DNA from: Campylobacteraceae bacterium
Lineage (GTDB): Bacteria > Campylobacterota > Campylobacteria > Campylobacterales > Sulfurovaceae
Assembly (NCBI GenBank): GCA_027080995.1
Contig: JALWNT010000118.1
Span: 1-64,000, forward strand
Reading direction: 5' to 3'
Length of the DNA stretch: 64,000 nucleotides
The first letter of the stretch is position 1, and each line of letters begins with the position of its first letter. Below are positions 50,945 through 57,608 of this stretch, piece after piece. Both the position numbers and the translations under genes were made by a program. The notes under the pieces are model-generated. The model was not told the origin of the DNA. It made no database searches and worked only from the letters and a program-made list of their open reading frames with translations.

Positions 50945-51658
50945 TCAGTCGGCGAGGATCTCTTCGAGGGTGATGTAGTCTCCGACCCGGCCGGTCATCG
51001 GCTCGACGTCGGTATTGACAGGCAGAGTCTTCTTACCGGGTCTCCAGCCTGCGGGGCAGACTTCGCCGGTTTTGTAGGCGTGCTGATGCGCCTGGATCTG
51101 GCGGATGAACTCGTTGACGTTCCGGCCGACCGGGGGAGCCTGGACTTCCTGGGCGACGATGACACCGTCAGGGTTGATCAGGAAGCGGCCGCGCAACGCG
51201 ATACCGGCATCCTCGATCAGTACGCCGAATTTGCGGCTCATTTCGTGAGTAGGATCGGCCGCGATGGTCAGTTTGAGGCCTTCGAGCAAGGGCTCAGTCT
51301 CCGCGAAGCGCTTGTGGCTGAACTTGGTGTCGGTGGAGACCGCCAGGACTTCACAGCCCAGCTCTCCTTTGATGGTATCCAGGTGGGCGTTCATCGCCGC
51401 GATCTCGGTCGGACAGACGAAAGTGAAATCTGCAGGGTAAAAGCAGACGACCGTCCACTTTCCTTTATAATCCTCGCTGCTCACCTCGGTGTAGTGTCCG
51501 GTCTCGGCGTTGTAAGCCTCGGCCTTGAATTCGGGCATATTTTTCAGGACCAGGACACCTGCCTGAGTCGCTACGTTAACGTTTTCGTTCATTTTGTTTT
51601 CCTCCTGTGTTTGGGTTTTGTCGGCTTCGTTCGAAGCGGTAGGTTGATCGCATGCCAT
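50945..51658 (-). CDS. ahpC: peroxiredoxin AhpC (2-Cys)
   Basis: AhpC reduces hydrogen peroxide and organic peroxides. The 237-aa protein (or 215 aa from the second start) has the peroxidatic Cys in YPADFTFVCPTEIAAMNAHL (PxxxTxxC), and the resolving Cys in TGEVCPAGWRPGKK. The first ATG (51658) has AAGGAG six bases upstream and the second (51592) has AGGAGG eight bases upstream. Both look used, which is unusual. A Fur/PerR-type box (51701-51713) lies in the promoter region. Confidence 0.93.
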   Translation of the reverse strand: MACDQPTASNEADKTQTQEENKMNENVNVATQAGVLVLKNMPEFKAEAYNAETGHYTEVSSEDYKGKWTVVCFYPADFTFVCPTEIAAMNAHLDTIKGELGCEVLAVSTDTKFSHKRFAETEPLLEGLKLTIAADPTHEMSRKFGVLIEDAGIALRGRFLINPDGVIVAQEVQAPPVGRNVNEFIRQIQAHQHAYKTGEVCPAGWRPGKKTLPVNTDVEPMTGRVGDYITLEEILAD

Positions 51659-53176: not shown

Positions 53177-53264
53177 TTCTATCGAAAAGAATCCCCAGTA
53201 TCACTTCCAGGAAAAGCAGGATCACCATCGTCCAGTAGAGCATCCTCCAGCTCGGCCAGCGCAT
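53172..53264 (-). CDS. 30-aa single-span membrane protein
   Basis: The ATG shares one base with the yaaA stop (TGATG) and gives a 30-residue peptide, MRWPSWRMLYWTMVILLFLE and then VILGILFDRN: a Trp-rich start and one membrane helix. It is coupled to yaaA. No family is recognised. Confidence 0.45.
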   Translation of the reverse strand: MRWPSWRMLYWTMVILLFLEVILGILFDRN

Positions 53265-54001
53265 CACTCCACCTCGTAGATCACTTCCCGCTTCTTCCCC
53301 TTCTCCTGGATCTCCAGCAGATGCATCCCCTCCAGAGGAAGCGCGAGGACCTCATCAAGATTTGTCGCCTTCGCCAGAGCGATTTCCCGGACCATTCTCC
53401 CTCGCCACATTTTGGCCCAGTGGCTGACCACTTTGCCGTTTTTGAGGAATTTCATCGTCGTAAAAGCTCGGGAAGGTTTGTAAAAGCGATCGTAGAATCC
53501 CGCCCGCAGATCGAGGATCTCCTCTTCGGCCAGCCAGGCATCCAACAAAGCGGAGGCGGCTTCACGATAACGCTTCTCCGGAGCTATCCCCGCGATCGCG
53601 GCTCCCTGCTTCACCCGATAGTCCGGGATCCGATCCGCAGCCCTCAGCGGGCCGAAAAGGTTGGAGAAAATCACGAGATTGCCGTCCAGAAAACTTTGGG
53701 CTTCCGGCGGCAACGACGGGTAGTCCAGCGCATCGAAAGCCACACCGTCGTAGCGAAGTACCGCCTTCATCACCGGAGCCTTGCAGGGATGGAGCCGGGC
53801 GTATCGGGCGATCTGATCAGGCTTTTTCAGGCCGAAAAGCTCTTGCAACTCCTTCGGATCTCCCCGTTCGAGAATCCCTTCGTAGAGATCCAAAAGCTCC
53901 TCTCGCAGCGGACAGAGCGTATCGAACAGCAGCGCACAGGGATCGAAACACCCCTCTCCCCCGCTGCGTTTTCCTTCGCTGGGCGCCAGAAGAATCTTCA
54001 C
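53264..54001 (-). CDS. yaaA: YaaA/UPF0246 family peroxide-stress protein
   Basis: The 245-aa protein starts with LLAPSEGKRSGGEG and contains DALDYPSLPPEAQSFLDGNL, VIFSNLFGPLRAADRIPDYR and LDLRAGFYDRFYKP, typical of the family. In Escherichia coli YaaA lowers intracellular iron during peroxide stress. A role here is likely but unproved. It is followed by a 30-aa gene and preceded by the SpoIIAA-like gene on the same strand, 7 bp away. Confidence 0.88.
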   Translation of the reverse strand: MKILLAPSEGKRSGGEGCFDPCALLFDTLCPLREELLDLYEGILERGDPKELQELFGLKKPDQIARYARLHPCKAPVMKAVLRYDGVAFDALDYPSLPPEAQSFLDGNLVIFSNLFGPLRAADRIPDYRVKQGAAIAGIAPEKRYREAASALLDAWLAEEEILDLRAGFYDRFYKPSRAFTTMKFLKNGKVVSHWAKMWRGRMVREIALAKATNLDEVLALPLEGMHLLEIQEKGKKREVIYEVE

Positions 54002-54008
54002 GTCAGCC

Positions 54009-54395
54009 TCAGGAGAGGATCCACTCTCTGGCCGCTTCGATGTCGGTGAAAAAACGCATCTCCCCCCGGGCGAAATGTCGGAAAAGCTCTACAGAAATTT
54101 CTTCCCACTTTTTCGTCCCGACGACGGCAATCTTCTTGAACTTGTCCTTGATCTCAAGACCGAAGCGCATATCGTCCAGCGCCGCCTCGAAACTCCACCC
54201 CTCGAAATTCCGCATATCGACAAGAAGATCGAGCTCTTTCTCTCCCGCGGCTTCGATGGCCCGCTCGATGACAGGGATCATCACCTGATAATCTCTGTGG
54301 TGTAATTTGCCCTGCATCCGAAGCTCCAGATACTCCCGCTCTCCTTCGGCACGAATTACAATACTTACTCCCCGGGTATCGATCTCTATGGACAT
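54009..54395 (-). CDS. SpoIIAA-like (STAS superfamily) protein
   Basis: The 128-aa protein has a STAS-like fold: beta strand VSIVIRAEGEREYLELRMQG, MIPVIERAIEAAGEKELDLL and VDMRNFEGWSFEAALDDMRF. It matches the SpoIIAA-like family (pfam11964), of unclear role, often near membranes or lipids. It is probably co-transcribed with yaaA, 7 bp downstream. Confidence 0.78.
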   Translation of the reverse strand: MSIEIDTRGVSIVIRAEGEREYLELRMQGKLHHRDYQVMIPVIERAIEAAGEKELDLLVDMRNFEGWSFEAALDDMRFGLEIKDKFKKIAVVGTKKWEEISVELFRHFARGEMRFFTDIEAAREWILS

Positions 54396-54515: not shown

Positions 54516-55703
54516 ATGCCTATGCAGGTCTATTTGGACAACAACCGCCTCACGCAGGTCGATCCCCAGGTCCTCGGCGCGATGGAACCTTTCTTGAAAG
54601 AGCCCTACGGAGACCTTCACGCGCTCCACGCCCGGGGGGCCTCCAGCCGCAAAGAGTTTCTCAAAGCGTTGGAAAAACTCTACGCCGGCCTCCACGCTCC
54701 CGAAGAGAGCGACATCTTTTTCAGCTCGGGGAGCGCCGAAAACCACAGCACTCTGCTGATGGGGATCTACAGCGGCCTGATCCTCACCGGCCGCAAAAAC
54801 AACCTCATCATCAGTGAACGCAGTGATGAGGCGATGATGGAGGGGGCCGGCTTTCTCGAGAGCCAGGGGTGCAAAGTCCACAAACTTCCCGTCAACAAAG
54901 AGGGGATCGTCGATCCCGAAAGCCTCTACGACTACCTCACTCCCCACACGGCACTGGTCTCGGTCCCGATGGTCGATCCGGAGAGCGGGGCGATCAATCC
55001 GGTCGAAGAGATCGCCGAAATTTGCCGACGCTACGAGGTTCCTTTCCATACCGACGCGACTCACGCTCTCGGCAAAATCCCCATAGACGTGCAGGCTTTC
55101 GATCCCGATCTTTTGAGCTTCGGAGGAGAAGCGATCCACGCCCCCGCCGGAATCGGCGCCGTGTATCTCAAGGATTCTTTCGAATGGATGCCGACGATTT
55201 TCGGTGCCCGCAATCCCTGGGAACGCTACCGCGGCGGCCCCCTCAACCTCGCCGGGGCCGTCGGCCTGGGCAAAGCGATCGAACTCGCCAGCGATGCCCT
55301 GGAGTTCGAGATGGAAGATACCCGGGATCTGCGTGACCGCCTCGAAGAGGAGCTGCGCACTCTTCCCGGCGTCACACCGCTGGTCGCCTGGGCCCTGCGG
55401 GTCCCCAATACCGTCCTCTTCGCCGTCGAAGGGCTCGAGAGCGAACTGATGCTCTACGAACTCGACCGCGGCGGTGTCGAAGCGTACGCCTGTACCGTGC
55501 AACCCTTCGGCAACTGGCAACGGCGCCCCGTCACCGACGCTCTGGGACTCGACCCCCGGCTCAAGCACAGCACCGTCGGTTTCGCCCTCAGCCGCTTCAC
55601 GACGGAAGAGGAGATCGACCATACAATCAAAACATTCAAAGAGATGCTGGAGTATCTTCGCAGCTTCTCCACTTTCAAGGAGCTTTCTTATGAGCAAAAG
55701 TGA
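54516..55703 (+). CDS. NifS-like protein lacking the PLP lysine (probable pseudoenzyme)
   Basis: The 395-aa protein follows the NifS fold from start to end (MQVYLDNNRLTQVDPQVLGA; FHTDATHALGKIPIDV; RVPNTVLFAVEGLESELM). The active site is changed. The PLP-lysine segment SAHKFHGPKGIG of known NifS reads SFGGEAIHAPAGIG, so the Lys becomes Ala. The PLP-stacking His is Asp in SERSDEAMM, the Gln of DAVQ is His in DATH, and the Asn of the ATESNN loop is replaced in SSGSAENHST. The mobile-loop Cys is not at its normal place (YACTVQPFGN). It should not bind PLP as usual. The NifU-like gene overlaps it by 14 bp. Confidence 0.85.
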   Translation: MPMQVYLDNNRLTQVDPQVLGAMEPFLKEPYGDLHALHARGASSRKEFLKALEKLYAGLHAPEESDIFFSSGSAENHSTLLMGIYSGLILTGRKNNLIISERSDEAMMEGAGFLESQGCKVHKLPVNKEGIVDPESLYDYLTPHTALVSVPMVDPESGAINPVEEIAEICRRYEVPFHTDATHALGKIPIDVQAFDPDLLSFGGEAIHAPAGIGAVYLKDSFEWMPTIFGARNPWERYRGGPLNLAGAVGLGKAIELASDALEFEMEDTRDLRDRLEEELRTLPGVTPLVAWALRVPNTVLFAVEGLESELMLYELDRGGVEAYACTVQPFGNWQRRPVTDALGLDPRLKHSTVGFALSRFTTEEEIDHTIKTFKEMLEYLRSFSTFKELSYEQK

Positions 55704-56652
55704 AACCCTGCGCAATCCCTTCTGGGAAGATTTCCGCTTCAAGGTCCAGATGCTGATCGAGCGTCCGAAAAACAAAGGAGTCTTGAGCGAGGAGGAGGCC
55801 CAACAACTTCAGGCCGATCTGGCAGTTCACGACTACGGGCGTCCGGAGGAGGGGATGCAGCTTCGTTGGTACTGGGCTATCGACCGCGAGAACGGCCGCG
55901 TCGTTGCTTGCCGCTATACCCTTTTCGGCCCTCCGGTCCTGCTCGCCATCGCCGATATGGCCGCCCTGCTGGTACGCAACAAAACCCTCGAGGAGATCGA
56001 AAAGATCAACTACAAATCTCTGGAGTACTTCCTCAGAGACAATCCCGTCGATCCCGCCCTGCCGCCTGAACGGCGCTTCGCTCTGACCTTCGTCCTGCGC
56101 TCACTCGCCTCGGCCGTCGCCGCTCAGCGGGGAGAGAGGCCGGAGGCATCCCCTCTGGTCTGCGAATGCGCCGGCATCGACAAAGCGACCGTCGAAGCGG
56201 TGATCCGTGATTTCGACCTCCAAAGTGTCGAAGAGATTACGGATTACACCCGAGCCGGTGCCTTTTGCAAAGAGTGCATCGCCCCGGGCTTGAGCCCGAA
56301 ACCTAGGGAGTATACGCTAAGCGATCTGCTCAAAGCCACGCGCCAGGAGATGGAGGAGGAGCGATCCACCCAGTCCTCGGTCCCCGAAAAACCTTTCAAG
56401 GAGATGAGCCTCGACGAAAAACGGGCGGCCATCACCGCTGTCATCGATCGCTACATCCGGGATATGCTCGTGATGGACGGCGGAGATATGGAGATCCTCG
56501 ACGTCAAAGAGAACGGAGAGCATACCGACCTCTACATCCGCTACCTCGGAGCCTGCAGCGGCTGCGCCAGTGCGAGCACCGGTACCCTTTTTGCCATCGA
56601 AGGGATCCTCAAACAAAAACTCGACCCCAATCTCCGCGTCCTCCCCCTTTGA
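55690..56652 (+). CDS. NifU-like protein without scaffold cysteines
   Basis: The 320-aa protein has NifU's three parts. The N-terminal IscU-like domain (about residues 1-125) lacks all three scaffold Cys: the site LSCGDAL is GRPEEGMQL, FGCGSAIA is FGPPVLLAI, and MHCSVM is RRFALTF. The middle [2Fe-2S] domain keeps CECAGIDKATVEAVI and FCKECI (four Cys). The C-terminal Nfu domain keeps MLVMDGGDMEILDV and YLGACSGCASAS. Scaffold assembly is thus unlikely, but cluster binding by the other domains is possible. The start at 55690 overlaps the NifS-like gene. Confidence 0.85.
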   Translation: MSKSETLRNPFWEDFRFKVQMLIERPKNKGVLSEEEAQQLQADLAVHDYGRPEEGMQLRWYWAIDRENGRVVACRYTLFGPPVLLAIADMAALLVRNKTLEEIEKINYKSLEYFLRDNPVDPALPPERRFALTFVLRSLASAVAAQRGERPEASPLVCECAGIDKATVEAVIRDFDLQSVEEITDYTRAGAFCKECIAPGLSPKPREYTLSDLLKATRQEMEEERSTQSSVPEKPFKEMSLDEKRAAITAVIDRYIRDMLVMDGGDMEILDVKENGEHTDLYIRYLGACSGCASASTGTLFAIEGILKQKLDPNLRVLPL

Positions 56653-56999: not shown

Positions 57000-57608
57000 T
57001 TACTTTCCTGCAGGAGGAGTAGGCTTGGGGATGAAGAGCTCGGGCTGGAACTTGTAGGTCCAGGGCAGGCCGGCATTCTTCCATCCGTTGAGATCACGAC
57101 GATGAGTCTTTTTATTCATATCCCCTTCGAAACCGGTAGTGATGGTGTAGGCTTTCTTGTAACCGGCTTTGTAAAGTGCGGTCGCAGTCATTCCGGAACG
57201 GTCACCGGAGCGGCAAATGACGATGACGGGATCCTCTTTGCTCAAGCCTTTGGCTTTGAGAGCGGCATCAAACTCCTGAACCAGCTGGGGATTTTTCCAG
57301 CTGGCGAACTTCTTATGCCCTTTTTTGGTCATAATGAATTTGGAGTAGTCGATGTATTTGAAAGGAATGTTTTTGTCCAATCCTGCGGCATGACCGACGA
57401 AGAGAACTTCCGCAGGCGTCCGTACATCGACAAAGAGGACTTTGGAAGGATTGGCTTTGATCATATCGAAAGCCTCTTTGGGTGTCAGGTAGAGCCCTTG
57501 GGGAGTTTGCTTGGCTTTCTTGGTAGGCTTTTCAGCAGCATAGAGGCCTGTGACGAAGGCACTCATCAGACCGAAGATCATCAGAAGAGACATCAGTTTT
57601 TTTGTCAT
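57000..57608 (-). CDS. periplasmic rhodanese-domain protein
   Basis: The 202-aa protein has a signal peptide (KKLMSLLMIFGLMSAFVTGL, cleaved near YAAEK) and a rhodanese domain with VLFVDVRTPAEVLFVGHAAG and the active-site loop IVICRSGDRSGMTAT (Cys in CRSGDRS). The domain has a CH2-like middle insertion. It could move sulfane sulfur or bind oxyanions in the periplasm, which suits a sulfur-oxidising vent bacterium. The 100 bp upstream of it are AT-rich. Confidence 0.85.
   Translation of the reverse strand: MTKKLMSLLMIFGLMSAFVTGLYAAEKPTKKAKQTPQGLYLTPKEAFDMIKANPSKVLFVDVRTPAEVLFVGHAAGLDKNIPFKYIDYSKFIMTKKGHKKFASWKNPQLVQEFDAALKAKGLSKEDPVIVICRSGDRSGMTATALYKAGYKKAYTITTGFEGDMNKKTHRRDLNGWKNAGLPWTYKFQPELFIPKPTPPAGK

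Follow-up and report, generated by a model that had tools for sequence, protein, structure and literature searches.

A NifS-like and NifU-like gene pair without catalytic and scaffold residues is retained in Nitratifractor and related Sulfurovaceae

Results

The gene pair and its surroundings

The window analysed here, the whole stretch of 64,000 nucleotides taken from a Sulfurovaceae genome (G000), carries two overlapping genes on the forward strand that resemble nifS and nifU. The first (54516–55703, + strand) encodes a NifS-like protein of 395 amino acids with the fold-type I/class-V cysteine desulfurase fold but without the PLP lysine, the stacking His and the loop Cys. The second (55690–56652, + strand; best start ATG at 55690, stop at 56652) overlaps the end of the first by 14 nt and encodes a three-domain NifU-like protein of 320 amino acids. 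Both frames are intact and full length, as a preliminary description of this DNA had stated. Next to the pair, on the minus strand (57000–57608), is a gene for a rhodanese-like protein that probably has a signal peptide and whose CRSGDRS loop is intact; a rhodanese-like gene (75 % identical) also lies beside the pair in genome G020 and was not found at the locus in the canonical genomes G024 and G042. On the other side, again on the minus strand, are genes which, by reading, encode a peroxiredoxin (50945–51658), a YaaA-like protein (53264–54001) and a STAS-domain-like protein (54009–54395). A STAS-like gene also adjoins the canonical nifSU genes of G024 and G042.

Loss of catalytic residues from the NifS-like protein

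Residues of the NifS-like protein were assigned by aligning it with 24 canonical Sulfurovaceae NifS proteins. The segment SFGGEAIHAPAG (aa 201–212; 55116–55151, + strand) is the counterpart of the PLP-lysine motif SxSAHKFHGPKG, and in it the Lys of SAHK is replaced by Ala and the His by Glu. The SSGSAENHS segment (aa 70–78; 54723–54749, + strand) corresponds to SCATESNN, with Thr replaced by Ala and the last Asn of ESNN by Ser, while the stacking His of EVEHPS is Asp and the Gln of HTDAVQ is His. At 54972–54995 (+ strand) a V-D-x-E-S-G-A-I signature takes the place of (A/V)NNETG(A/G)I, such that the Asn of ANNETG becomes Asp. Two motif residues are retained, Asp in HTDA and Arg in RSGTLN. This alignment bears out the replacements of the PLP Lys, the stacking His, the Gln of DAVQ and the Asn of the ATESNN loop that had been proposed from the single sequence. 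It had also been proposed that the mobile-loop Cys was displaced. The position of the loop Cys (STGSACAS) is indeed occupied by Gln, in a former Cys loop (55482–55523, + strand) where AYACTVQPFGNWQR replaces ASTGSACASEDLES and a T-x-x-P-x-G-x-W pattern is kept in Nitratifractor and its sister genus; however, the supposedly displaced residue, Cys326, is not conserved even within the genus and was rejected as a substitute nucleophile. The group of NifS-like proteins with these losses (referred to here as dead) has no fixed Lys, Cys or His that is absent from canonical NifS and able to substitute, the nearest candidate being Lys46 at 80 %.

Catalytic positions have been lost somewhat more often than others (8/10 in the window protein compared with 54/118 positions that are invariant in canonical NifS; hypergeometric p = 0.025), but the excess is mild (p 0.03–0.08), which argues for drift across the whole NifS-like protein, with the active site not singled out. 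Among Pfam and NCBIfam families the two proteins come closest to NifS and NifU, but they fall far short of the curated NCBIfam cut-offs. The NifS-like protein matches PF00266 with 166.7 bits over residues 5–368, yet it scores 332 bits against its best NCBIfam model, nifS_epsilon (TIGR03403), whose cut-off is 587.7 and with which a canonical Sulfurovaceae NifS, used as a control, scores 663 bits. The fold itself is predicted to be preserved. In AlphaFold models built from clade alignments the NifS-like protein adopts a NifS fold (mean pLDDT 78), for which the best Foldseek matches are the NifS proteins of Hydrogenimonas and Helicobacter pylori (TM 0.79–0.89).

The NifU-like protein keeps its Nfu domain

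The NifU-like protein has the domain order of NifU (PF01592, NifU_N; PF04324, BFD; PF01106, Nfu) but scores only 104 against NifU_proper (TIGR02000; cut-off 273.3). In the IscU-type domain (55741–56079, + strand), alignment agrees with the preliminary description that the three cluster Cys are replaced by Glu, Pro and Ala, the third position lying just past the profile match; the IscU Asp (CGD) is Met and the IscU His (MHC) is also lost. The model of this N-terminal region is nevertheless IscU-like (pLDDT 84) and matches human ISCU2 with a TM to target of about 0.85. The four Cys of the BFD-type [2Fe-2S] middle domain (56155–56280, + strand) and the CSGC of the Nfu domain (56431–56640, + strand), which also contains the sequence MDGGDMEIL, were both correctly described as retained.

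A similar pattern is found across the NifU-like proteins coupled to dead NifS (n = 23). Cys2 and Cys3 are lost from all 23 and Cys1 from 22, the protein of G017 being the only one with a Cys at the Cys1 position; in g2 a Cys sits two residues before it. Ferredoxin (BFD) Cys are retained in Nitratifractor and G017 and mostly lost in the other dead genera, whereas the Nfu CxxC is present in 23/23, so that the constant cluster-binding part of the NifU-like protein is the Nfu domain. It is not the sole Nfu of the cell, an idea that was rejected because a stand-alone short Nfu gene exists in most genomes of the genus. The window genome also encodes a short stand-alone IscU-like protein in which the first cluster Cys is replaced and two of the three are kept (L038:2–280, L039:1–318), and a second NifU_N gene of this short type is present in most genomes of the genus. 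This protein may serve as another scaffold, or as an acceptor of sulfur.

Distribution and origin of the dead pair

Matched loss in two coupled genes, which the preliminary description had reported for the window, proved to be real and to extend across five genera. It is common to all 13 Nitratifractor genomes examined, with intact frames in every one, and the PLP Lys is also lost in 13/13 relatives from four other Sulfurovaceae genera. The survey of related genomes thus yielded a dead set of 26 NifS and 23 NifU proteins. The Lys position of the 26 NifS is occupied by Thr, Ala, Pro, Asn or Leu, the loop Cys is lost in 26/26 and the Asn-to-Asp change of the VDxESG signature is likewise present in all of them. 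Nine matches to this signature beyond Nitratifractor and g2 were not in nifS or nifU, and its occurrence outside Sulfurovaceae was rejected. The dead genes are adjacent in every locus read from the five genera and nearly all the NifS frames read are full length.

Dead and canonical NifS are split by one branch (support 100/100), including when the active-site motifs are masked, and dead and canonical NifU are similarly split (SH-aLRT 100). These trees lack a root and include some long branches on the dead side, which makes a single origin of the dead NifS–NifU clade the favoured explanation but not a proven one. In the closed genomes G024 and G042 the canonical nifSU genes adjoin dnaN–pyrG–recJ, and the dead pair occupies the same location in G000, G020, G019, G037 and G017, indicating that the ancestral housekeeping NIF operon was itself converted in place and that the dead pair is no spare copy. 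Replacement is not the whole story, since genome G009 has a dead pair together with a canonical pair (L101, L109) and two further strong class-V matches; this double set may be due to duplication, transfer or binning error.

Selection on the dead pair

Between close relatives, dN/dS was 0.04–0.13 for dead NifS and 0.06–0.14 for dead NifU, about 2–5 times higher than for canonical pairs (0.02–0.03). Selection on the dead pair is therefore relaxed, yet strongly purifying. Neither the frame disruption nor the near-neutral evolution that would mark a pseudogene was seen, the frames being intact and dN/dS lying between 0.04 and 0.14. Moreover, 15 positions are fixed to a non-canonical residue in Nitratifractor and its sister genus, including R102, D154, W292 and, in the former Cys loop, T327, P330 and G332. 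Constraint is unevenly distributed over NifU. For a dead set that covers more genera than the canonical set, mean pairwise identity is 0.60 within the dead genus and 0.45 within the dead clade for IscU (canonical 0.91), 0.60 and 0.42 for BFD (canonical 0.93), and 0.86 and 0.77 for Nfu (canonical 0.84). Dead-clade conservation of the Nfu domain thus equals that of canonical NifU, and Nfu provides an internal control, being under nearly the same constraint as before, in contrast to IscU and BFD.

Other genes for sulfur mobilization and cluster assembly

An intact nifS–nifU elsewhere in the genome was searched for, and no intact nifS was present among the PF00266 matches, those of the closed genome included. 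Across the 13 genomes of the genus (one closed) and nine further genomes that have only the dead pair, no other NifS/SufS-like match to this class-V family was found. The remaining PF00266 matches were all weak and were rejected as hidden desulfurases; the six that were read proved to be O-acetylhomoserine sulfhydrylase or aminotransferases of the sugar, aspartate and serine-glyoxylate types.

In the window genome sufB, sufC, sufD, sufE and a sufT-like gene lie together on one contig. SUF was found in 10/13 genomes of the genus and in each of the other dead genera, but it is missing from several genera with only canonical pairs; of the three Nitratifractor genomes without SUF, two are 73–88 % complete and one (G053, 99 % complete, where SufB/D was not found) is in 350 contigs. 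SufS is absent from the SUF operons read, namely those of G000, G020 (L057) and the canonical G024 (L116). The acceptor Cys of SufE is kept, as are both Cys of MnmA in the ten genomes tested.

Discussion

We have described a NifS-like/NifU-like pair that is real, old, selected and co-inactivated, and which is a pseudoenzyme derivative of the Fe–S machinery. Its parentage is clear from comparison with the campylobacterial NIF system (H. pylori HP0220/HP0221; Hydrogenimonas NifS, 5zsp), to which it is orthologous as judged by locus, gene order, coupling, length, domains and fold, but from which it differs in the missing PLP Lys, loop Cys, PLP-contact residues and IscU Cys, and in family scores below the cut-offs. 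In H. pylori, nifS and nifU are essential, NIF is the sole system, the proteins form an (NifS–NifU)2 complex and they can replace ISC and SUF in Escherichia coli (PMC8144621 and work cited there). Open-licence papers on NifS of Nitratifractor or Sulfurovum and on desulfurase pseudoenzymes yielded no description of the dead pair.

If NifS no longer mobilizes sulfur, the question arises of how the dead lineage obtains it. Judging by the Cys kept in SufE and MnmA, persulfide chemistry would seem still to be wanted, and the retention of these residues where no desulfurase is recognisable argues that sulfur comes from another donor. In the canonical genome G024, too, SUF occurs without SufS. SUF in Sulfurovaceae may therefore normally draw sulfur from NifS, in which case the dead lineage would have lost the usual donor of its SUF system. 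We consider sulfide or polysulfide, or a sulfurtransferase or PLP enzyme, the most likely donor; a desulfurase from outside the class-V family may supply the sulfur. The builder of clusters in the dead lineage is likely to be SufBCDE–SufT.

Our working hypothesis is that the pair has become a non-catalytic NifS–NifU platform in which the Nfu carrier is the working part, clusters being made by SUF with sulfur that does not come from NifS; we lean towards this explanation with modest confidence. Cluster building would first have passed to SufBCDE–SufT, after which NifS could lose its desulfurase chemistry and NifU its IscU-type assembly site. The NifS fold would stay on as structural partner of NifU, and the Nfu domain, joined in Nitratifractor by the BFD [2Fe-2S] domain, would accept clusters made elsewhere and pass them on to client proteins, sulfur presumably entering from sulfide, polysulfide or another sulfurtransferase or PLP enzyme. 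The Nfu-type carrier HP1492 of H. pylori also has a CxxC Nfu domain, and no part of the NifU-like protein is better conserved than this one; here, however, it follows an empty IscU domain and a BFD domain in one fused chain and is coupled to a NifS fold. Several observations count against the platform: the full NifS and IscU folds have been kept, which is more than a Nfu carrier alone needs; the stand-alone Nfu gene means that the Nfu domain of the NifU-like protein is not the only carrier; SufB/D was not found in G053; G009 has both kinds of pair; and SUF in the canonical G024 is likewise unaccompanied by SufS.

Alternatively, the pair may be a slowly decaying relic under relaxed selection, kept solely for its one useful part (Nfu), with deletion of the remainder still to come. 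Loss within the genus of 47/118 positions invariant in canonical NifS, with only a mild catalytic excess, the elevated dN/dS, the loss of BFD Cys in some genera and of the DNN motif in some g2 members are all in keeping with such decay. However, dN/dS is still much lower than 1, the NifS frames read are nearly all full length, the genes have stayed adjacent in every locus read from five genera and new residues have become fixed, so that we regard decay as rather unlikely. Purifying selection, fixed residues specific to the clade and the conserved Nfu domain together make it more likely that the pair has kept a non-catalytic role than that it is decaying, and to that extent the suggestion of a repurposed complex in the preliminary description is upheld.

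The closest precedent for a dead NifS is the IscS of Archaeoglobus fulgidus, which has the NifS/IscS fold without the PLP Lys (Lys199 is Asp), has no desulfurase activity and works with a scaffold, lending its Cys as a ligand to the IscU cluster (PMC7585200). It could be argued that the NifS-like protein acts in the same way, aiding cluster assembly on a scaffold from free sulfide. The structures 4hvk and 4eb5 share the fold of our model (TM to target 0.87–0.88), and sulfide is a workable source for a SUF-type system, as shown by the SMS system (SmsCB) of Methanocaldococcus jannaschii, which makes clusters without a cysteine desulfurase (PMC12192291). A. fulgidus, however, keeps the loop Cys as cluster ligand and the cluster site of IscU; in the dead pair both the loop Cys and all three scaffold Cys have gone and no ligands are left for such assembly, and we give this proposal little credence. 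SMS, for its part, is an archaeal two-protein system, whereas here we are dealing with a bacterial SufBCDE–SufT in which the SufE Cys is kept. Methanosarcina acetivorans IscS1 and IscU3 are likewise described as lacking residues needed for IscS/IscU function (PMC7585200), but that organism has other IscSU copies in the same cell, while in the dead lineage no recognisable desulfurase was found. Taken singly, the steps are made plausible by these precedents, yet none of them matches the dead pair exactly: here Lys, ligand Cys and scaffold Cys have been lost together, in cells that have no recognisable replacement.

A further alternative is that the NifS-like protein has acquired a new activity, catalytic or in ligand binding, at a rebuilt site, with Glu for the His of SAHK, Asp for the Asn of NNE, and Trp292. 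D154 is present in 26/26 and W292 is nearly invariant, and R102 and the TxxPxGxW loop are found in Nitratifractor and its sister genus. Against this, the Lys position varies among Thr, Ala, Pro, Asn and Leu, there is no new shared Lys, Cys or His, and the other genera share only some of the new residues, which makes a new activity very improbable. Lastly, the window genome is a draft of 127 contigs with a second NifU_N gene split across two contig ends (C85/C79), but artefact (sequencing or assembly error, frameshift or a missed intact copy) can be dismissed almost completely, since the same loss occurs in 13 genomes of the genus, including a closed genome that has no further NifS, and since the split gene is not the remnant of an intact operon: its halves join through a 127-base overlap to encode a single short IscU-like protein with two Cys, and neither contig has a nifS next to it.

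Cysteine desulfurase is treated as a near-universal source of sulfur for bacterial Fe–S clusters and thiolated tRNA. The dead lineage, its closed genome included, appears to be without one, and keeps a dead enzyme and an emptied scaffold under selection while the Cys of SufE and MnmA remain intact. The labels 'cysteine desulfurase' and 'NifU scaffold' would misdescribe what these genes do. More tentatively, and as a possibility that we would rate below an even chance, the free-living lineage of Nitratifractor and its relatives might build Fe–S clusters and thiolate tRNA without any cysteine desulfurase, by supplying SufE/SufBCD and MnmA with sulfur from sulfide or polysulfide in the environment, with the former NifS–NifU serving as a non-catalytic delivery or sulfur-relay platform. 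The dead pair raises the questions of whether bacterial SUF can operate with any donor besides cysteine and which non-catalytic task a NifS–NifU complex may perform, and the wider issue behind them is the sulfur supply of these cells.
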